In this document: piece by piece, positions 17,805 to 59,960 of the stretch | Position numbering within the stretch: position 1 is the stretch's first letter | Layout of the letters: every line of letters begins with the position of its first letter | Source of the DNA: Nitzschia sp. pyKryTriq1 | Lineage: Eukaryota; Bacillariophyta; Bacillariophyceae; Bacillariales; Bacillariaceae | Reading direction: 5' to 3' | DNA: 64,000 nt | NCBI GenBank assembly: GCA_956465555.1 | Contig: OY101115.1 | Span: 62,001 to 126,000 of the forward strand | The notes under the pieces: generated by a model | What the model saw: the letters and a program-made list of their open reading frames with translations, nothing else | Told to the model about the DNA's origin: nothing | Databases searched by the model: none | Made by a program: the position numbers and the translations under genes

Positions 17805-19526
17805 TTACGCCGATGCGTTATCCGAAACGTCCATATCGTCCATATCCGATTCATCTTCCATCCGACCCACAGTCGAAGCGTCATAGTCATTCGCTGCGGC
17901 TTCCACTTGCTCTTTATTCAATCGAGCCAATGCCTTGATTTCCAAATCCAATGCTTGTTGCATGGCTTCCTTTTCGTCTTCCGACAATGCTTGTTGGACT
18001 TGTTCTCGCAAAGTCCGGATATTACCCAGAATTTCAGTACGTCGGGTCGTAAAGGAATGAAGGACTTGCGACGGTCCTTGTTCCAACGTTTTCCATTCTT
18101 GAGGAATAGTGCGTGCTCCCGGAGCATTGTTGAGAATGTTGGTACCGATGTGAGCTTCGGCGACCGAGTCACCATGAGCACTGCTCAAATCGGCCTTGTC
18201 CATGGCGGCACGTTCTTCGGGAGTACCGATATAGACTTCATCGAGTTGAAAGCCTGCTAGTTTCTTGTGGATGATGCCCAAGAACCAAGCTCCGGCACAC
18301 AGACCGGTAGCTTCGAGCAACAAGGCGGCTCGAAGAAAGATATAGACCAAAGGATTGGACAAGAACTCCAAGGGAAAGGCCGAAGCGACCAATTGCCACG
18401 AGATGGATCCGAGGATGGTAGTAATGATGGCACCCAAGAATCCCATGTTGAAGAATTTTTGAATACTATCCGAAACACCAAAAATGTTGGGGTCGACCCC
18501 AATCTCGACATCCAAAGTCGTGACGCGAGCAATGACAAAGAAACAAAGGGTGACACACATTTGACGTCCGACCATGAATCCGGGAAGATTTCGTCCTTCT
18601 CCACGAAACAATAATTCGCAGGTTTTCATGGCCATGGGATGGTCTCCCCGTTCCTTTTTGGGCAGTTTGGCCACGGCAAAAAAGGCAATTTGCATCCCTT
18701 CCAGCATGCCCACGACGGACATGAGCACAAAGAATAGAATGACCGAGACACCGTTGGGGACACCAGCCCACATGGTGGTCTCTCCTTTGAAGAGAGCGTC
18801 AAGAGTGACGGCCAAGGAAAAAGCGAGAATGGCAATGGACCACACGCAGCGTCCATAGAAAAAGGCGGCTTGGGCGGGAGTTTTGGGAGGTTCGTTGGTC
18901 ACCACAGGCTTTCCAGCGAGCCAGTAGAAAAAATATTGGATCAAGTAGCAACAGTGCATGACTCCCGTCTTCTCAATGATCAAAGTAACGTAGAGTGTAA
19001 ACGTCATGAAGTGGGTGTTGATGTAGTCCAACATGCAGTGCGAGGCGTTGACCTGCGCGGTGAGCTGTCCGACAGTGACAACCGTCAAGACCATGGCGAT
19101 CCCAGAGCCCAAAAAGATGTTTTCGATCCATGCGGGAAAGTTAAAGACTTCGGCACCTGCCAATGGAGCTCCACACAAGTTAATGGTAAAGTTGATAAAG
19201 ATGACCATGAACTGACGTCCCATGAGGTATCGGTCCAAGTTGTCTCCCTTGTGTCCAAGAGAGCAGATCTTGTACGTGATGGGATGAGATTCCTTGTAGA
19301 GATCACGGTTGACGGGGGGAAGACCAACCATGGAGCACTGTCCTCCCTCGACCATGGACATCCAGGTGATACCGACCCACATGACAATGAGGGCGACGAC
19401 CGGACTGACGTCGGCGGCGATTTTGGTGTTGTTATCGAACATCAACGCGGTAACGATGGTGATCGAAAAGATGACCAAGAACATGGAGTAACCCATCTTG
19501 ATGTAGTCTAACGTAGTGTGCTTCAT
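17805..19526 (-). CDS. SIT: Silicic acid (silicon) transporter, SIT family
   Basis: A 573-residue intronless protein starting MKHTTLDYIKMGYSMFLVIF; the frame stays open upstream but the extra residues do not look coding, so the ATG at 19526 is preferred. SITs are sodium-coupled silicic acid transporters of the diatom plasma and silica deposition membranes, and essentially a diatom/ochrophyte family. The diagnostic duplicated motif pairs are present: EGGQ (60-63) with GRQ (103-105), and EGMQ (276-279) with GRQ (320-322). About ten hydrophobic segments run from residue 8 to about 450, and the C-terminal 100 residues are hydrophilic with a Glu/Lys/Gln coiled-coil (about 500-545), as usual for SITs. 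Length matches the family (about 550 residues). The gene diverges from peroxiredoxin Q across 879 bases. Confidence 0.95.
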   Translation of the reverse strand: MKHTTLDYIKMGYSMFLVIFSITIVTALMFDNNTKIAADVSPVVALIVMWVGITWMSMVEGGQCSMVGLPPVNRDLYKESHPITYKICSLGHKGDNLDRYLMGRQFMVIFINFTINLCGAPLAGAEVFNFPAWIENIFLGSGIAMVLTVVTVGQLTAQVNASHCMLDYINTHFMTFTLYVTLIIEKTGVMHCCYLIQYFFYWLAGKPVVTNEPPKTPAQAAFFYGRCVWSIAILAFSLAVTLDALFKGETTMWAGVPNGVSVILFFVLMSVVGMLEGMQIAFFAVAKLPKKERGDHPMAMKTCELLFRGEGRNLPGFMVGRQMCVTLCFFVIARVTTLDVEIGVDPNIFGVSDSIQKFFNMGFLGAIITTILGSISWQLVASAFPLEFLSNPLVYIFLRAALLLEATGLCAGAWFLGIIHKKLAGFQLDEVYIGTPEERAAMDKADLSSAHGDSVAEAHIGTNILNNAPGARTIPQEWKTLEQGPSQVLHSFTTRRTEILGNIRTLREQVQQALSEDEKEAMQQALDLEIKALARLNKEQVEAAANDYDASTVGRMEDESDMDDMDVSDNASA

Positions 19527-20405
19527 GGTGATGACTGTCTCGCTTGCTTTGCTTGTGACGATAATGTAAAGGATAGGTCTAGTAGTAGAGAGAAGAAAGA
19601 GCACAACTTGGTGATGCAAAGACCAAGAATCGATCTATCTGAAAGTTGTGTGCTCATCAACACTTTCGGTTGGGAATTCAATCCCAAAAAGGACGGATGT
19701 GTATTGCCAATTCCACGTTTTGATAAGAAATGTAGATCAACAGTCCTTAAAGTGATATTCATGTCGCAGTGTTATGTAAAGTAACATGTGGATAATGTCC
19801 TCCGAAGTCAACAGTTGTCCTTCGGCTACGTAAACTGAAGTACTATTCAATCCGCATACACCATGGGCATGCGCCCTTTTGTATTTAGCGAATGATGGCG
19901 CCTCCTCCAATAACAATCCGAACGCACCTTCTACCCGGGAATAGAACATTCTAAAAAGAGCGGGAAAACAGCAGACCTCGCTCGCTTCGCTTATTCGCTT
20001 GGCGGAGCGATGAGCGAGCGTCGGTACTCATACGTTCGTTTCTGTTCGTTTGTGGCGTTCTTCTGTGTTCGATGTACGTACGTTGATGAATGACGTGTTG
20101 GCACGGAAAACCAAAAAAGATGCCGATCGATCCGCCATGCATCAGCGGCCTGCCATCATCCGTCGCGACTCCCGCATCATCATCACCATCATCATCATCA
20201 TCATCAAATCGGAACCGCATCCACCACCTCTTTTCAACTTCGTCAGAAGAATAACGTCGGCGCTACCGGCATTAGCTACTACGTTGATCGGATGCAGAGT
20301 GATGGGATGGATCTTTTCATGACGCACGAGTAGTCCATATTTTCGAAAGCATCCTCATCTCGGTCATCGCTTCGGTATTACCCTGCATACTCGCATACTA
20401 ACACC
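19527..20405. promoter_or_regulatory. Shared divergent 5' region of SIT and PrxQ
   Basis: The only non-coding DNA between the divergent SIT and PrxQ starts. It includes CGCTCGCTTCGCTTATTCGC-type repeats near 19978-20030 and (CATCAT)n at 20175-20205. No TATA box or initiator could be placed with confidence. Confidence 0.35.
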
Positions 20406-42801: not shown

Positions 42802-44883
42802 CTAGGAAGAATGTTTTGTTGTTCGGAGGAAAAAGAAATCTCTCGACGACAGCTCCTCTAACTTTCGCCTCTTGTTGTTGATGTTATTGTTGTTGTTGTT
42901 GTCGTTGGATGGACTTGGTCGTGCTGGTGCTTGTTGTTGTCCTTGTTGGTGTTGATGCTGATTTCCTGCTGGTGGTTCTTGTGATCCCCCCCCTGCTGCG
43001 AGTATCATAGTACTACTAGTCGAAGTAGTCCCTTCTTCTACCCCACCACCACCAGATGATGATGATCGTCTTGCTGCTGCTGATGCATGATTATCATCAA
43101 TCGTCGTCGTCGTCCGGAACAGAGGCCCATCCACTTTCTCATCGGATAGTAGTAAAAAGGAGGAGTTACCACTACTACTATTACCACCACCACCAGAGTT
43201 CGCTCCTGCTGCTCCTGCAGCTAGGTATCCCCCTGACAAGGAATCTCGTCCAGAGGAGGAATAAAAGCCGCCGAATGCTGGGTTTTGATGCGTAGTAGTA
43301 GTAGTAGTCGTAGTAGTAGCAAATGATGGGGAGGAAGAAGAATCGCCACCACCTAGTAGTAGTGCTGGACCATGATGATGGAGGAATGATCTTCCGTCGG
43401 TGGTGCTGTTGGTGCCGCCTCCTCCTGCTGCTCTAGACAAGGGAACAAACGGCGACGTCTCGAGCAGCACCATGCTTTCGTCTCTTTGTTGGTGGTGGAA
43501 AGGAAACACCAAATTGTTGTTGTCCCGTCCTCCTCCTCCGCCACCACCACCTCCTCCTCCCATCGTCGTGGTGGTGCTGGTAGTGTCTGTTCCACCACCA
43601 CCGCCGCCTCGGGGGTATGAACAAGCAGCAAGAAGAGATGACGATGCTGGTGTCCTCATGTTGTTGTGGGGAAGGAACAACGAATGCGATGATGTTGCTG
43701 TTCCTGTTTGAGCAGGGGGAGTAATCTGGGAAATTCGGGAGAGTGGATTTGGCTCCAAGATAGCGAACATGTCAGCGATTTGTTGTTGCTGGTGTTGATG
43801 TTGTTGTGCTCTGCTAATAGTAGTATTGGCGGCGTTGTTGCTGGTTGTACTAGCAGCCAAGAATGATGAAGTTGTTGCTGGTGCTCCCGAGGATAATCCC
43901 CCAGCAGTAGTAGTAGGCGGATGATGATCCTCTAGCAATTCTGCCATCATTGATCTCAAAGCCTCCCTTCTTGATGATTCATAAAGACTGTTGTTGTTGT
44001 TGTTGTTGTTGTTGTTGCTGTAGTTGTTCCCCTCCAGCATGATCGGTGGTTGGCGGGTGGTGTTCATTTGCAAAAAATTGAGGGTCTGCTCCTCCTCGTA
44101 CTGCTGCTGCTGCTGCCGGCGTAGTAGGATGTCATCTACGAGTACTAGTCCAGCAGCAGCATTCGAAGAGTTTGATTGGTGCGGCCTGCTGGACTGGTGA
44201 TGGTGAAGAGGCAGCAGAGAGGAGGAAGAAGAGAAAACGTTACCATGAGTTCCCATCACTGGTGCAAATGTCGGAACAAGAAGATGATGATCGTCGTTTG
44301 TTTGCTGCTGGTGGTGGTGGTGCTGCTGCTGCCGTAGTAGAGTGTTAATAGTACTTCTTTCACCACGAGAAGCAGTAGAAGCAGCAGCAGCAGCAGCCAG
44401 TTTGAGTCTCGCAATGAACATTTTCAGATTTGTGTTTTCCTGCCGTAGCTCGACGTTCCTTGCTTTGAGTTCCGTCTGCCTTTCTTGCATGACCTCAAAC
44501 TCGATTCGTTTCCTCTCTCTGCTTTGCCAAGCAGTAATCCTGCTGCTGGCTCGGTGTCGACGTTTCTCTTCATCATCTTCCACAGCACCCCCACCAGGAG
44601 CTTTTCCTTCTTGTTGTTCTCGGTGCTGCCCTTCCACAAGTTCATTGGCTGCTTGACACGCGGCTGCAATATTTCCTCCATACAGCAAGAAACATGGGTC
44701 GAGGATGCTGTTGCTACTGCTGTTGTTGTTATCGGGGGAAGAGGATTCTTCTTGCTGCGGCATTGCGAGGAGCATAGTGGATGATACCGAGGTAGATGAT
44801 GGTGGCAGAATAGTATTGGTGCATCCGCCGTCTTCGTTACCTTCCTTGTTGTTGCGTGTTGCGGTAGGTTTGGTTCTCATCAT
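42802..44883 (-). CDS. bZIP transcription factor with Ser at the invariant Asn
   Basis: An intronless 693-residue frame from an ATG at 44883. The bZIP lies near the N-terminus: basic region KRRHRASSRITAWQSRERKR (107-126), then IEFEVMQERQTELKARNVEL leading into a zipper with Leu at 139, 146, 153 and 160 in perfect heptads. In bZIP proteins the basic region has N-x7-R; here the spacing to Arg122 puts Ser114 where Asn contacts DNA bases. The remaining 530 residues are Gln, His, Asn, Ser, Thr and Gly runs of activation-domain type; LDPCFLLYGGNIAAACQAAN before the basic region is a more ordered island. It should dimerise; whether it binds the usual ACGT-type sites is doubtful given the substitution. 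Target genes unknown. Confidence 0.85.
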   Translation of the reverse strand: MMRTKPTATRNNKEGNEDGGCTNTILPPSSTSVSSTMLLAMPQQEESSSPDNNNSSSNSILDPCFLLYGGNIAAACQAANELVEGQHREQQEGKAPGGGAVEDDEEKRRHRASSRITAWQSRERKRIEFEVMQERQTELKARNVELRQENTNLKMFIARLKLAAAAAASTASRGERSTINTLLRQQQHHHHQQQTNDDHHLLVPTFAPVMGTHGNVFSSSSSLLPLHHHQSSRPHQSNSSNAAAGLVLVDDILLRRQQQQQYEEEQTLNFLQMNTTRQPPIMLEGNNYSNNNNNNNNNSLYESSRREALRSMMAELLEDHHPPTTTAGGLSSGAPATTSSFLAASTTSNNAANTTISRAQQHQHQQQQIADMFAILEPNPLSRISQITPPAQTGTATSSHSLFLPHNNMRTPASSSLLAACSYPRGGGGGGTDTTSTTTTMGGGGGGGGGGGRDNNNLVFPFHHQQRDESMVLLETSPFVPLSRAAGGGGTNSTTDGRSFLHHHGPALLLGGGDSSSSPSFATTTTTTTTTHQNPAFGGFYSSSGRDSLSGGYLAAGAAGANSGGGGNSSSGNSSFLLLSDEKVDGPLFRTTTTIDDNHASAAARRSSSSGGGGVEEGTTSTSSTMILAAGGGSQEPPAGNQHQHQQGQQQAPARPSPSNDNNNNNNINNKRRKLEELSSRDFFFLRTTKHSS

Positions 44884-48099: not shown

Positions 48100-49675
48100 T
48101 TAAATCCAAGCCGCACCATCCGCGACCCCCAATACTCCTGCTACCATCATCATCATCGTCGTCATGAACAACGACAACGACAACGACAATCCCATGCCGG
48201 TCATTTTTGTCCTTGCCGCCGCCGAGCCTGCATTATTTCCGCCACCACCATCCCCCGCGGGTGCGGAATCATCCGTCTTGGCGGAAGGAACGACTCCTGG
48301 CAAGACGGGAGGTAAGGCAATGGGCGAAAATCCAGTAGGGATATCGACCGGAGCCATGGTTGGTTCAATGTAGACCGTTGGCCGGGGCGTAATGGTCGGA
48401 GCCGGACTGATGGTCGGTGAGACCGTATCGTAATCCAATCCAATGACTCGATCAATATAATGCAAGATCCCATTGCGAGCGTACATGTCGCAATTGTAGA
48501 GGTAGGCACCTCCCACATAGAGATTCTGCCCTCCATCGGGGTTGAGTCCCCATAGACCACTGCCAGGCTTGCCTCGTAGTTCGACGGCGATCATTTCCTG
48601 TTCCACCGTTTCGATTTCGGTTTGATTGGCAATGACATCGCAAAACATCAATCCCTTGAAGATATGACGTTTGATGATATCGGCTCCATCCAACGTCCCA
48701 AAGACGACTCGACGAAAGGCGGTATTGTCGGGTGCCAACAAGGTGAGGGGAGAATCCCGATCGACCAAGTCGGTCAATTGAACAAAGTCAATATTCTCGA
48801 CGAGAAGAGAAAAGTTTGGATTTTCATTGGATTGATCATAGATACTCCTCGAGACGGCAGTCGGAGTAATGGCCGTATCAAGCATGTGCAAGTACCTAGT
48901 AGTAGTAGTAGAAGTAGTAGTCGTACAGAGTAGTAGTAGAGTACGTGGTTGGTGCAAGAGAGAGAGCGAGAAGCAATCAAGTGTGAGTGAGGGGACTTGA
49001 GGAAGGAAGGAAGGACGGGAGGAAGGAAGGAAGGAAGGAAGGAACACGCTCGCAAAAAAGCACCAAACAACGTTAGTACTACTGTACTGTACTGTACTGT
49101 ACTCTGTACTTACCCATCCAAGGCAATCAAATCTCCAAAATCACTTCGGGCTTGTTCAATTTCAGTATTCTTGATGCGAGGACGATCTCCACTTCGTTTG
49201 AGTTCGTAGGTTAATCCATTCAACATGGTAATTTCGGTCGGTGCCATGTTGACCAATTCTTCTCGTGTCAATGCGGGAATGGTAATATGATTCATCAAGA
49301 ATTCCGTCGCATGTCGGACCCAAATGGGTTCCAGTAGGCGTTGAAAGTCTTCATTGTTGAATTGGGCAAAGGCCTCCCGTGAGGGACAAAAGACGGTCAA
49401 GGAGGAATTGAATTGTTGCGATATTTCTTCACTGGTCAACAAGGCTTGAACAAAGAATCTATTGCAATCGCCGGTATCCCAATCGGTGGAGACGGCAGTG
49501 AATTCGGTAAAGTCACTGATAAAGGGTGGATAGACGGGCAAATCCAGCACATGAAAGATACTAGTATATTGTATCATGATGATAGTGGTGATGATGATGA
49601 TGATGATGATGGGCAGCGGCGGTGGTGGGAGTACAAGTACAAGTACAAGTACAAGTGGAAACGAAGCATGAAGTC

Positions 49676-49708
<33 letters not shown>

Positions 49709-50878
49709 AGATATCAATGCATGAATGAAGGAACGCAAAGGCAAGGCAAGGCAAGGCAAGGCAAGGCAAGGCAAGGCAAGCCAAACCAAGCCAAGCCAAG
49801 CCAATACTGATACGGACTGATGATACTGATACTGATACTGACTGACTTACCCATTGAGTGCGACACGGTCCGTCAAGATGACTTCTCGCGATTGGAATCG
49901 AAGACGACCGCCGGTAGTGGTAACCCACATGTGCGTTCCGAGTTCGGTGATGACCAAGAATTGTTCCCAATCATTCTCATTGTTATAGGCAAAGACGCCC
50001 GCTTCATAGTAGACCATATCGGTAATCAAATGACACAAGACAAAGTCCCGGGTATAGTCTTTCATTTCCGGTGTCAATAGTGCGGGAACATTAATTTGAG
50101 CTCGATTGAAACGTCGATTGGGTGGTACCAAAAAGGTAATCCCATGCTCGTAGTTCATGGAATTGATCTTTTCATCCAATCCTACATACAAGGCCAAATT
50201 GGCCATGGTAGAATACGTAAACATATCGGACGTGTCACGTTCGAGCATGTGTTCAATCAAATTGACTGCCATGTAGGGTGGAATAATGACTTGATCCAAA
50301 ACATGAATGACGATTCCATCACTGGTGGTAAGATTGGCTTCTTGAAAGGCAGTCAACGGGACATTGTCGACCTTTTGAAACCGTTGATCAATCGTAATGT
50401 TCCCTACCGAATTTTCCATTTTTTCTCGGCTCCCATTAAAGATTTCACTCGTCGTATACGCGCCTTCTTGGGCAGTGACCAAATGCCACAGTAGGATTTC
50501 TCGCAAATGGCCAAAGAACTCGGGTTGCGAGACATATTTGTTCCAAACATTGACATCTTGATCTCTCCAAACATTAAAGGCATCCGTCGTCGGAGCAAAG
50601 ATGGTACCGGCAATCGTCGAGGGAGAAATCCCGGCACGGTCCAAGAGTTGAAGGAATTTCGAAAAGCGAACATCATTCGCCAGGAAGGTAGCGGCACTGC
50701 TGGTAGAGGCTGCTGTGGCTGTGGTTTGGGCTTGACAAAACAAGAAGGAATTATTGTTGTTGTTGCTCTTGTTGTTGCTGCTGCCCGTCATCATCATGAT
50801 GGCCACTCCTGCCATCATGGCACAGAGCCGGAGCAGACATGGAACATTGGTTTGCTTGTTCTTGGCAGAGAGCATCAT
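48100..50878 (-). CDS. Four-domain fasciclin (FAS1) surface protein, three exons
   Basis: Exons 50878-49851, 49560-49114 and 48895-48100 (introns of 290 and 218 bases, GT-AG) encode 756 residues. A hydrophobic N-terminus (about 12-32) is a signal peptide. Exon 1 carries two FAS1 domains: FAPTTDAFNVW with IVIHVLDQVI, and FLVPPNRRFN up to VALNG. Exon 2 completes that HVLD motif and adds a third domain (TVFCPSREAFAQF). Exon 3 begins with YLHMLD and adds a fourth (LTLLAPDNTAFRRVVF, ILHYIDRVIGL). The tail is Thr/Pro-rich (PTISPAPTITPRP) and ends in a hydrophobic segment (LSLSLSLFMTTMMMMVAGVL), consistent with GPI anchoring or a C-terminal membrane helix. FAS1 proteins mediate adhesion; a role in diatom adhesion is inference. 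Both introns are phase 2 and interrupt the same Gly codon of the NG-x-x-H-x-LD motif. Confidence 0.88.
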
Positions 50879-54551: not shown

Positions 54552-57500
54552 TTAGCTACTTTGCTTTGTGGTAGCTTCTAGCAATGTCTCCAGAGGAGAT
54601 TTTCGAGTCTCATCCGGAACAAGAGCGGCTCCGACAATCGCTCCAATCGCGCCGGCTTTTTGGAGTTCCTTGATATAGTTTTCGGGACTTCCTCCTTTCA
54701 TTTCACCCGTCACGATTCCGACACGGCCTTCGGCTAAAATGGCAGTTTCTTCGCCGTGCTTCTCACGGAACTTCTTCAAGGCATCGCTTTTCAAGATATC
54801 TAGGGCTTGCTGACCTGACATGTCGAAGGAAAAGTCTTCGAGGTTGCGATTGGAAATGATGAGTCCAGTAACGCCACCCGCAGGTACCACGTCAAGGTCT
54901 TCGATTTGTTTCGTAGATGTCACAGTGACGAATGTTTGCATTTTCAGGCTTGCAGCGATCTTTGTCAAATATACCAAGTCCTTGGCTTCCAAGGCGGCTA
55001 CCATCAAATTGACGGCATCGGCGCCTGCAAGTAGCATCTTGTACAATTGATACGGGTACAGCAGCAAATCAGATGCTAGAATGGGCGGAACGACCACGCC
55101 CCCCTCGTTGGATCCATCGCTCTTTTCCAGAGCAGCTTTCGAGCTGCTGTCTCTCGCACTTGTGACATCGTCCAAAGTGCCACCAAACAAAACGGCGTCG
55201 CAGTTCACACTCATAGCTGGGACTCCCGCCAGTGTGAACTCCTTCGCCAATTTGGAAATGTCGTAGCGCTTTCGCAAACTACCAGATCCTGGTTCTAGGC
55301 GTTTGCATTCGGGAATGATCACAAACGAGCCCTTGGCGGCAGCCTCTCTAATGGGTCCAATCCAATCTCTGGGCTTTGGCTTGGACGGATCTACCATGCT
55401 CAGTCGACACTGCGAGACAAGATTCGACAGAGGAACTCGCTCTCGAAATCGATCGACCTCGGTCTCTTTATCCCACATGAAGCCTTCCAGTGCGGAAGTA
55501 GGAGTGGCTGTCTTTTCGGCCACACTCCATTCGACTGTTGATACGGTCATGGCACGTCCCGAGTGAATTTCTCGTCTTCGCAAGATCAGCTCTCCATCTT
55601 CGTCTCGAGGGGCTTTCTTTTCGCTATCAAATGCTTTGACTCGATCGTCCCGATCCTTCCCAGATTTGTCTTGGATTCGCTTTTCTTCTGCTTCTTGCAG
55701 GACCTTTTCCTCTTGTGCTCTAGCGGCTTCTGCAGAGGCTCTACCAGGCACATAAATAGGCCGTCTCGATTCTGGGAGTAAGGTCAAGCAACGAAAATGG
55801 TATGAGACACGAGCTTGCTTGCTCAATACAACATACCCATCTGCGTACTGTATGATGCTGGTCGGTAGCGTATGTACGAGTATACTTACTGCTTCCGAAT
55901 AGAACGTAGCCCGAGGCACTTCCGTACTGACTGGTCCGTTCTCGACTACCAATCGTACTAGGATTGGCATCAAGAGATCCAATCACACCGTTGGAAAAGA
56001 AACCTGAAAGAGACGGTAGCGTTGGAAGAAACTCCATCACCGTTTGACTTTCGTAGCCTGCCTTTCCCATAAAGAACTTGTTTCCCCGATCCAAGGTTGG
56101 GAATAGGAAGCAACCGGTAGGTGTAAAAGGCGGTTTGATGCTGGTAGCGGCCGTCACCTCCCCGTCCTCTTCCTTCTTGGACTTGATCATTTTTTTGCTT
56201 TCCGCCAACACCCGTCGTTTGTATCCTGTCCACAAGGCGTCGACTTCCTTTTTGGCAAAGGGCGATTCTCGGACATAAAAACGAAGACGTTGTCCTGGCT
56301 GGATGTCGACACTCCCCAGGGGTAGCGTGACGGACCCATCCTTCATGGAGGCCGTAGCGACTTGATGGACTGCAAACGCATGACCCTTTCCTTCGGCGAG
56401 TCTGGCCAATTCACTGGGCGTCCGTCCCAAAGCCCCCCCGCGCTCCAACCCGACCAATATCGCTTTGCGCATAAAGGCTTGATCGTCATCGCTCAAGGTT
56501 TTCATCAAAAAGTTGGCCTCGGCCAGTACCGGCTTGGGGATGCGGGCCTTGGCATAGGCTTGTGCCATTTCGGCTTTGTTGTTCTTGCTGCTCATTGTAT
56601 TATCATCGTCATTGTCATCATCGTCTTGATCGACTTCTTCGTTGTCTTCTTCATCTTCTTCGGCTTGCACCAATTCGGTAGCAGACTCATCCAAAGCAAT
56701 CGCTGAAATGGTCGTTTCTTGTCCCTTGACAATTTGATAGACACCACCCACAGGTTTGGCACCTTGGGCAATCATCATTTGTACTTCGATATCCCCACTC
56801 AAGACAACGCCGACACATCCATCGGCCAACGTTTGAATGCATGAACCATTGCCATTGCCATCACCATTTTGTTGTTGCTGCTTCGCGTCATATCGAAAGA
56901 GACGAGCTCTTGACAACGATGAGACAGTACTGGCAATGGCACCAAAAATGGTCGGACTGACATGAATCGATAATCCTTGTAACAAATCGTCCAAACTTTT
57001 TTGAAAGGCCGGTGAAGGAATGACCATGACTGCCGCGGTATTACTGCCCGTGTTTTTTTCATCATTATCATCATCATCATCATTATTCGCCGCCTTTAAT
57101 CCCACAGCTGCCATCCAATCTTCCTTGGATCTTGTTTCGTAATCATCCGGTACATCATCTCCCAGGACATGAAAAGTCTAACCATACGGTAAGGTACGTA
57201 GTGATGATGGTATATAATAGAGAGTGAGTGAGTGAGTGAGTGAGTGGAAGCCATGACACGAAAGTGAAGCGAAGCGAAACGAAACGATACTATACTGTCG
57301 AAGCATCATCTATACTCACTTGTACATTAACATCGGGCAAAATCGCCAAGGTCACAGTGACTCCTGGAACACCTTCTCGTTCAATCGGACGACATGCCTG
57401 CTGCTGAACAGTACCCGACACGTCTTTGCCAAAGTCATGATCCTCCTCTGATCCAGCTTCTTCTTGTTGTTGTTGTTGTGATGGTGCTGGCGGAACGACA

Positions 57501-58120
57501 GCACAATAATTCAAATTCGCTAGACTGCTGACGAATCCACCATTCGTCCCACCGATTAAATTTTGAATGCCCAGTGTTCCATAATGCGGCGATGCAAATG
57601 CCGCTTGGAGGAGTGTGGGTACCACATCCGAAGGTCTAGCATTTCCATCGTATAGACTCGAGACGGAAACAATGGCCAAATCAATCTTGGCGGTACTACT
57701 ATCAGTGGGAACCGGAAGACCTTCCAGGGCCATGTCCATGGCTTCTTCCAAGGCAGTCGTCATTTCTAGGGCTTGCGAATATCCACTCGACAAGACTTGA
57801 GGCTCTACTGCTGCTGCTGCTGCTGCTGCTGTTGTCGCCGCGGCGTCAACATCTTCTTTTGCAGTATTGCTGAGAACATGCAACGAACGAGAACACAACT
57901 CTTGTTGCTGCTGCTGCTGCTGCTGATAATGGTGCGGTCTCGGGCTAATACTGCTGGTGGTGGTGGTGGTGAGGAATCCATCCACTGTCGTCGCTGCTGC
58001 CGCAAGGAACAGCAGGAGCAACACCACCACAAGTAGATGACGACGATGATGGTGCTGAGGAATCCTCGTCGATTTGCTTTTTCTTCTTCCCATCTTTGCT
58101 CCTTCTTTTTGTTTCACCAT
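54552..58120 (-). CDS. FIST domain fused to indole-3-glycerol-phosphate-synthase-like barrel, plastid, three exons
   Basis: Exons 58120-57320, 57177-55890 and 55771-54552 (introns 142 and 118 bases; GT-AG) encode 1102 residues. The start has a hydrophobic core (LLVVVLLLLFLAAAATT) and VDGF, fitting a signal peptide with Phe at the cleavage site, so plastid import is likely. Residues about 110-690 are FIST_N and FIST_C: IDLAIVSVSSLYDG, GIQNLIGGTNGG, then GLERGGALGRTP, and GFFSNGVIGSL with SGYVLFGS at the end. A charged coiled-coil linker leads to an IGPS (TrpC)-like region: EGFMWDKETEVDRFRERVPL, FVIIPECKRLEPGSGSLRKR, VLFGGTLDDV, PYQLYKMLLAGADAVNLMVA and ISNRNLEDFSFD. By manual alignment the ECKR Lys is kept, but the second catalytic Lys (CKDF) is Ser in LASDL, the EV Glu is Thr, NN is SN, and the SESG Ser is Met. 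Catalysis of the tryptophan step is doubtful. Confidence 0.85.
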
Positions 58121-58860: not shown

Positions 58861-59960
58861 CAGTCGGGTGTGCGATTTAACGAGGTCTACGTCAGAACGG
58901 CTTCTTCCTCGTTAAATCGCGCCCTATAATGAACGGAAACTACGTAGAAAATGTACTAGGTTCTACGTACAATGCAAACAATAAGGAACACGTAGAAAAT
59001 GTACTGACATGCGCGTGGGTTAGACTACTTTGGGCCAAAGAAGGCATTGATGCTCGTCTGCCTGCTTCGACTCTTGGCTTCCGCTTCTTTCATTTTGACT
59101 CGGCGGTTGTGCGAAAACACTTCATCTCGCGCTTTTTTCAAGAAAAGGACCGCACCCGTGGCACCAGAAGAGTCAAGACACTCCTGCAACTCCAGCAGCT
59201 TGGCAGTCACCGCAGCATAATCAACTGCAGTCTCCTCCACCTCTTCTTGCACACTATCATTGTCACTGATCTCTTCTTCTTCCTCATCACTCAAGACTTC
59301 ACTAATTGTTGTTGCATTGATGACATCAAGCTTTTCAGTGCTGAGATATTCTGAAATTTCCTCCGAAGCCTCAAGATTGGCCCATTCCTCCAGGTGGTGC
59401 TCAAGTGGTTTCTCCTGACAATCGACCATTTCAATCATGTGCCGGACGGATTCAACTACTGGATCGAACTCGTCTGCATCCTTTGGGATTCTCAAACGTT
59501 TGAGCATCACAACAAGCTCTTCAATCTTGGGGGCCAATGGATGATCCTTCAAAGTTGGTGCTGTTTTGCCATGCTGTTGTACAAGAGTGGCAGTTTGTGT
59601 GATTGGCAAAATATCTGCTTTCATCCAGCACCGAGCCACTGTCTCCTCACTCATATTTCTCCAGACTTGAGACATAATCTCCATAGCATCAAGAATATGT
59701 GGGTTGTGGCCTTCCATGAGGCCTGCAGTCCCCGGCATACCCCCCACCTATTGATGTTCTTCGCCGGTTTCATTGGCTACACCATGTCCGGTGCTTACGT
59801 ATGTCCCCTGTCCCGTACGTACAGTACATATTTTGACGGACCGACAGACACCCGAGTCCCGACTCATGATTCAGTCATGAACAAAAATGACTGGCGGGAA
59901 TCCACTCGTTAGATCGTGCCCCAGACGGAATAAAACCCCGTTAAATCGCACACCCGACTG
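58861..59960 (-). mobile_element. Pogo/Tigger-type DNA transposon, deletion derivative
   Basis: The ends CAGTCGGGTGTGCGATTTAA CG and its reverse complement (59939-59960) form a 22-base perfect TIR (about 25 with one mismatch), flanked by TA at 58859-58860 and 59961-59962. A second inverted copy of the inner part (CCTCGTTAAATCGCG) lies at 58905-58919. The 1100-bp element carries a minus-strand frame (59747-59025, 240 codons) reading DAMEIMSQVWRNMSEETVAR then CWMKADILP, an acidic stretch, and RSRQTSINAFFGPK. This is the C-terminal region after the DDE catalytic core of pogo/Tigger (CENP-B-like) transposases. The catalytic core and DNA-binding domain are missing, so the copy is non-autonomous through internal deletion; its frame is open, which suggests youth. 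Confidence 0.8.

Follow-up and report, generated by a model that had tools for sequence, protein, structure and literature searches.

A FIST region fused to an indole-glycerol-phosphate-synthase-like barrel in a diatom gene: sequence, paralogues and a possible non-catalytic role in the plastid

The window, a stretch of 64,000 nucleotides making up positions 62001-126000 of contig 1 in a Nitzschia sp. genome of 40.65 Mb and 20 contigs, contains a gene in which a FIST region is followed by a linker and a barrel of the indole-glycerol-phosphate synthase (IGPS) type (Table 1). The first in-frame ATG lies at 58120 and the next at 58093, and the model begins at the latter, from which the protein is counted as 1093 amino acids. 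In the linker, residues 685-755 (71 residues), Glu, Lys, Asp and Arg account for about half of the composition.

Table 1. Positions in the window of the FIST–IGPS gene and its parts (E. coli numbering for barrel residues)
Feature	Position	Strand	Remarks
Whole FIST–IGPS gene	54552..58120	-	Three exons, stop codon included
Exon 1	57320..58093	-	Signal peptide with DG|FLT motif of plastid type, then a low-complexity stretch and the beginning of FIST
Intron 1	57178..57319	-	142 nt, GTGAGT...TTAG, without coding bias
Exon 2	55890..57177	-	Holds an acidic insert and the bulk of FIST_N and FIST_C
Intron 2	55772..55889	-	118 nt, GTAAGT...CCAG, between FIST and linker, without coding bias
Exon 3	54552..55771	-	Charged linker, entire IGPS-like barrel, stop
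FIST region	55969..57424	-	Residues 224-661, intron 1 inside; 112.7 bits for the whole protein with a profile made from 30 FISTs of cyanobacteria
IGPS-like barrel with N-terminal extension of cyanobacterial type	54555..55598	-	Predicted TIM barrel
E-C-K motif, E53 and K55 kept	55302..55310	-	Alignments and predicted model
Ser at K114	55071..55073	-	Alignments and predicted model
Thr at E163	54924..54926	-	Alignments and predicted model
Ser at N184; next N185 and R186 kept	54852..54854	-	Alignments and predicted model

A preliminary description of the locus had claimed a single three-exon fused gene with frame-keeping GT-AG introns, and this is what is found: both introns have these borders, the frame is continuous over them, and coding bias is confined to the exons. 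With codon preferences trained on seven stretches of the same genome, a small training set, the scores in the expected frames are 0.144, 0.215 and 0.194 for exons 1, 2 and 3, while the next-best score of any exon frame is 0.005 (exon 1) and both introns are negative in every frame. The occurrence of FIST and IGPS in a single open gene is far beyond chance (Pfam IGPS, PF00218, E 4.5e-23; FIST_N, E 1.2e-5), and, judged from the sequence, the two almost certainly form one fused gene.

The N-terminus of the fusion protein has, by eye and from its hydropathy, a hydrophobic core followed by the motif DG|FLT, and the rule described for diatom plastid presequences places F, Y, W or L after the cleavage site (PMC11528492). 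By this motif a presequence of plastid type is present, in line with the plastid setting proposed earlier, and we infer that the protein is located in the plastid. The starts of two other IGPS-like proteins of the genome (L005 and L006, described below) also have, by eye and hydropathy, a hydrophobic stretch with Phe at the likely cleavage site, and the same pattern occurs in an open frame just upstream of the canonical IGPS gene (L007), provided that this candidate is indeed its first exon. In the stand-alone FIST protein of the genome (L008), the hydrophobic N-terminal stretch is weaker.

The C-terminal region belongs to IGPS both by sequence family and by fold, as had been proposed: it matches the Pfam family, and structure prediction gives a TIM barrel with a confident core. 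The first catalytic Lys, K55 in the motif ECKR, is retained as claimed, and so are E53 and R186. The changes K114S, E163T and N184S are agreed upon by MAFFT and profile alignments, so that three of the four altered positions of the preliminary description stand as given; at the fourth, S215, the alignments give Lys and never Ser, in an uncertain register, with the predicted model setting strand 7 earlier than the alignments do, and the Met proposed there is not firmly placed. Two of the lost positions are the general acid and the general base of IGPS. The SPSKG motif reads EPGSG, and of 21 near-invariant polar IGPS positions 10 survive in the fused barrel and 20 in L007, the TrpC-TrpF of the same genome; within the fused barrel, polar positions have not been lost significantly more than non-polar ones (Fisher p 0.41). 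The best NCBIfam TrpC score of the fused barrel is 136 bits against a cut-off of 370, a comparison that is uninformative here because L007, taken without its first exon, also falls under its cut-offs (307.5 versus 380 and 228.9 versus 260). From the residues lost, the fused barrel is very probably devoid of IGPS activity; E53, K55, N185 and R186 are kept, and therefore some chemistry or ligand binding could still be accommodated. A TrpC-TrpF-like bifunctional enzyme was considered as the identity of the fusion and rejected, as the protein has no PRAI match.

PF00218 has four matches in the genome, namely the window barrel, L005, L006 and L007, and the full catalytic set occurs in one of them. 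This is L007 on contig 9, a TrpC-TrpF fusion in which E53, K55, K114, E163, N184 and S215 are present and E214 is Leu, and which provides a separate normal IGPS, such as the preliminary description had suggested looking for. In the IGPS-like protein L006:3169-4386, likewise on contig 9, positions 114, 163 and 184 are occupied by N, A and V; L005:3417-5186 on contig 4 retains K114 and E163, with Asp, Ser and Gly at 53, 184 and 215, respectively. Within the frames of L005 and L006 no FIST match was found; their matches among solved chains are, save two weak ones, IGPSs or designs on the IGPS scaffold, and the tree, in which their branches are long, does not place them firmly. A stand-alone FIST protein is encoded on contig 7 (L008:856-2427), with both FIST_N and FIST_C over cut-off. 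The single match for tryptophan synthase alpha, C4:608160-608819, lies inside a 679-residue frame, which is possibly a TrpA-TrpB fusion such as that reported for Thalassiosira (PMC3901274). Both the TrpC-TrpF and the TrpA genes sit on contigs other than that of the window. In Phaeodactylum, editing of I3GPS-PRAI is reported to have given 1 auxotroph subclone among 35 screened (PMC7431573), and two IGPS frames are reported for the same diatom (PMC3901274). Auxotrophy in spite of two such frames suggests that a TrpC-TrpF enzyme, and not a paralogue, carries the tryptophan pathway in diatoms.

Concerning ancestry, the closest sequence matches of the fused barrel are cyanobacterial IGPSs (119.6 bits, up to 39% identity); the loci used were the best 30 by similarity to the diatom query, and 75 of 146 genomes had a match. 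The N-terminal extension of the cyanobacterial form is present in the fused barrel and was found neither in L005, L006 and E. coli TrpC nor in the frame directly upstream of the L007 exon. In two trees the fused barrel groups with cyanobacterial IGPSs, with support 100/98 when 18 of 33 cyanobacterial rows were taken and 100/99 when 15 of 33 were taken, and AU tests do not reject a position outside the cyanobacteria (p 0.27) or beside the canonical diatom IGPS (p 0.16). The branches leading to the fused barrel are long, 5.07 and 5.8 changes per site, and because of this its evolution is taken to have been fast. Compared with the N-terminally extended cyanobacterial TrpC, which it resembles in extension and sequence, the diatom barrel differs by replacement at K114, E163, N184 and S215, by a 17-residue insert before strand 3, by a longer segment around strand 7 and by its fusion to FIST.

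For the FIST half, the motifs proposed earlier were recovered in part: FIST_N scores 25.8 bits and passes its cut-off of 23.2, while FIST_C reaches 16.2 bits against a cut-off of 28.5 and is represented by weak pieces of the cyanobacterial profile. That profile matches residues 224-422 with 76.1 bits, 471-582 with 15.2 and 610-661 with 17.9, in colinear order and with the last two weak, and it gives 146.6 bits for the stand-alone L008. A search of 146 cyanobacterial-phylum genomes with L008 gave matches, including a few weak ones, in 58, and the FIST loci used here are the best 30 by similarity to this diatom query. Cyanobacterial FISTs are also what the fused FIST resembles most (best 80.5 bits, 30% identity); beyond the 30 proteins it matches at E 10 or better only the locus L122 with 46.0 bits, a Desulfobacterota protein with 36.8 and an actinobacterial one with 20.0, and L122 is itself a cyanobacterial FIST that falls within the 30-protein group in the tree. 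No cyanobacterial FIST of sensor type was matched by the fused FIST at this threshold. In a tree with 18 of the 30 core rows, the fused FIST sides with the cyanobacterial FISTs (100/99), yet not inside them, and because of this a plastid origin is less sure for the FIST than for the barrel. In the cyanobacterial loci, searched about 1.5 kb to either side, the commonest neighbour occurs in 9 of 30, by eye a metallophosphoesterase-like protein, and the next in 5 of 30.

The two FIST proteins of the genome differ in which positions they have lost. Three bacterial FIST sets (30, 11 and 5 rows) have 28 columns in common, of which L008 keeps 20 and the fused FIST 15. When these columns are split, post hoc and by a criterion devised in this analysis rather than by a published definition of the FIST family, L008 keeps 5 of 8 polar columns and the fused FIST 1 of 8, while the other columns are kept in 15 and 14 of 20 cases, respectively. 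Among the changes in the fused FIST are Cys to Thr, Glu to Val and His to Tyr, all three residues being kept by L008. Of 112 near-invariant cyanobacterial columns, the fused FIST keeps 53 and L008 keeps 51, about half in each, and from this follows that calling the fused FIST degenerate depends on which positions went. The stand-alone cyanobacterial FIST and the diatom copy on contig 7 are colinear with the fusion through both FIST halves, whereas the fusion has the IGPS barrel joined to it, carries acidic inserts and lacks the conserved Cys, Glu and His. The FIST domain of FBXO22 is reported to bind protein and to have no obvious ligand pocket (PMC11185555), and this description, together with the polar positions lost, argues against the ligand-sensing role first ascribed to the FIST half.

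The same fusion or a close relative was not encountered on the genome contigs searched with the barrel, nor on viral contigs searched with the barrel, a barrel alignment and a FIST alignment. Canonical IGPS queries found seven viral-contig loci, on the same contigs when repeated; their motif is the canonical KASPSKG, and in the tree the five viral IGPSs included fall outside the fused-barrel group, on which grounds a recent viral origin was rejected. In the matches listed for the 146 cyanobacterial-phylum genomes, every open frame was too short for FIST plus IGPS, the longest being 397 amino acids for IGPS and 491 for FIST. A search of open-licence papers for a FIST domain together with IGPS, a fusion protein or the plastid found no such fusion among the papers listed.

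Pseudoenzyme IGPS barrels are already known from complex plastids, in proteins of the AMR1 type and in the TrpF-TrpC protein of Leucomyxa (PMC11528492). Plasmodium AMR1 and two IGPS-like proteins of Vitrella, as portrayed in the cited parts of PMC6380595, resemble the diatom protein in having an IGPS-derived TIM barrel with active-site residues that are not conserved and long extensions outside the barrel, and the photosynthetic relative also has a canonical IGPS; they differ in that no FIST domain is mentioned in those parts, the comparison being with their published description. None of the three complemented E. coli trpC, a result that the authors qualify by noting that the protein was undetected, and the IGPS-like plastid proteins were proposed to act outside tryptophan synthesis (PMC6380595). 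AMR1 is required for apicoplast biogenesis (PMC6380595) and its loss raises DOXP and MEP (PMC8022201). The plastid-biogenesis role is that of AMR1, to which the diatom fusion is likened in kind. Leucomyxa, also an ochrophyte, has a plastid protein whose TrpC barrel is considered dead, but there the partner is TrpF and not FIST, and the organism is described as lacking the other steps of the tryptophan pathway (PMC11528492).

The reading that we favour, to which we would give about even trust, is that the fusion is a non-catalytic scaffold or adaptor of the plastid, retooled in the manner of AMR1-type IGPS-like proteins. It would be a nucleus-encoded, plastid-targeted union of two proteins of cyanobacterial type, a widespread FIST and an IGPS of the cyanobacterial form, where each module keeps its family signature while the barrel has lost key catalytic positions and the FIST most of its conserved polar ones. 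Separate copies with the lost residues, TrpC-TrpF and the stand-alone FIST, remain in the genome. In the plastid stroma the FIST would bind a partner protein, and the barrel would hold a second protein or a small phosphorylated molecule that it leaves unconverted. Residue loss in both modules, combined with copies elsewhere that have those residues, is what makes the fusion fit such a function. Structural precedent for FIST as a surface that binds protein comes from FBXO22 (PMC11185555), and AMR1 and the two Vitrella proteins are the precedent for plastid barrels of IGPS type that lack IGPS function (PMC6380595).

Alternatives differ in what they make of the same residues. The least improbable, though itself unlikely, is a new enzyme, in which the kept Lys55 and Glu53 would serve the barrel in another reaction, possibly one whose substrate is a phosphorylated sugar or an aromatic compound, and FIST would regulate it or bind a partner. 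The retention of E53, K55, N185 and R186 and the confident core of the predicted barrel speak for such a reaction, and the scaffold has been re-purposed by design, as designed retro-aldolases and Kemp eliminases are among the matches; the loss of both general acid and general base and the change of SPSKG to EPGSG speak against it. Less probable still is the regulator of tryptophan or indole metabolism that the preliminary description proposed, where FIST would sense an amino acid and a dead barrel would modulate IGPS or tryptophan synthase. Such a regulator has a parallel in plant TSB-like, a tryptophan-pathway-derived pseudoenzyme paralogous to tryptophan synthase beta that has lost key residues and activates TSA (PMC12727527), but TSB-like comes from another enzyme, and in that source allosteric TSA activation is demonstrated for TSB-like only. 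This diatom does have a canonical TrpC-TrpF and a TrpA-domain protein, and the FBXO22 FIST fold is said to resemble chorismatases, which act on a tryptophan precursor (PMC11185555). On the other hand, most FIST-wide polar positions are lost in the fused FIST, IGPS-like plastid proteins are reported to be retained after loss of tryptophan synthesis (PMC6380595), and the intact IGPS and TrpA genes lie on other contigs. Apart from the ancestry of the barrel, nothing that we found points to this regulator.

It is highly improbable that the FIST senses a ligand other than tryptophan, such as haem or nitric oxide, in the manner of bacterial NosP and CdpA: responses to nitric oxide or haem, perhaps by way of FIST, are reported for bacterial proteins of this family (PMC8846402), but the FIST-conserved His, Cys and Glu are Tyr, Thr and Val in the fusion. 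We give least credence to the view that two distinct genes, or one in decay, have been taken for a functional fusion. The gene model was built from the genome sequence, and the long barrel branches indicate fast evolution, both of which would suit this account; against it, the frame stays open for 3.3 kb over two introns of consensus form, coding bias is seen in each of the three exons, and exon 3 on its own shows no presequence by eye, while the other IGPS-like proteins of the genome have one.

To extend the scaffold reading further, the fusion may be the red-plastid algal counterpart of AMR1: a plastid-borne IGPS, displaced by a non-plastid TrpC-TrpF, would have been captured by a cyanobacterial-type FIST and turned into a plastid-maintenance factor shared across red-derived complex plastids. 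We consider this doubtful; what would add most interest to the fused barrel is whether it has an ancestor in common with AMR1, on which the apicoplast depends. If true, a malaria-parasite gene with an unexplained mechanism would be tied to a photosynthetic and genetically tractable group. Three IGPS-like barrels with plastid-type starts beside one full-set IGPS suggest that such proteins occur beyond the relatives of apicomplexans. In diatoms IGPS-like plastid proteins can be knocked out and tagged, and the FIST partner offers a concrete handle, through its interaction partners, on the function of the barrel.

Elsewhere in the window, an open frame of 240 residues at 59025-59747 has no Pfam match at E 0.001; by eye it looks like the C-terminal portion of a DDE transposase. 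A long low-complexity protein at 42802-44883 has a weak bZIP match under cut-off, and adjoining open frames with Fasciclin domains occupy 48100-50878 on the minus strand. A silicon transporter gene lies at 17805-19619 (genome C1:79892-81523), with four more within 240 kb on the same contig; eight silicon transporter matches, which mark the genome as a diatom's, are present in all, seven of them at 873-885 bits.
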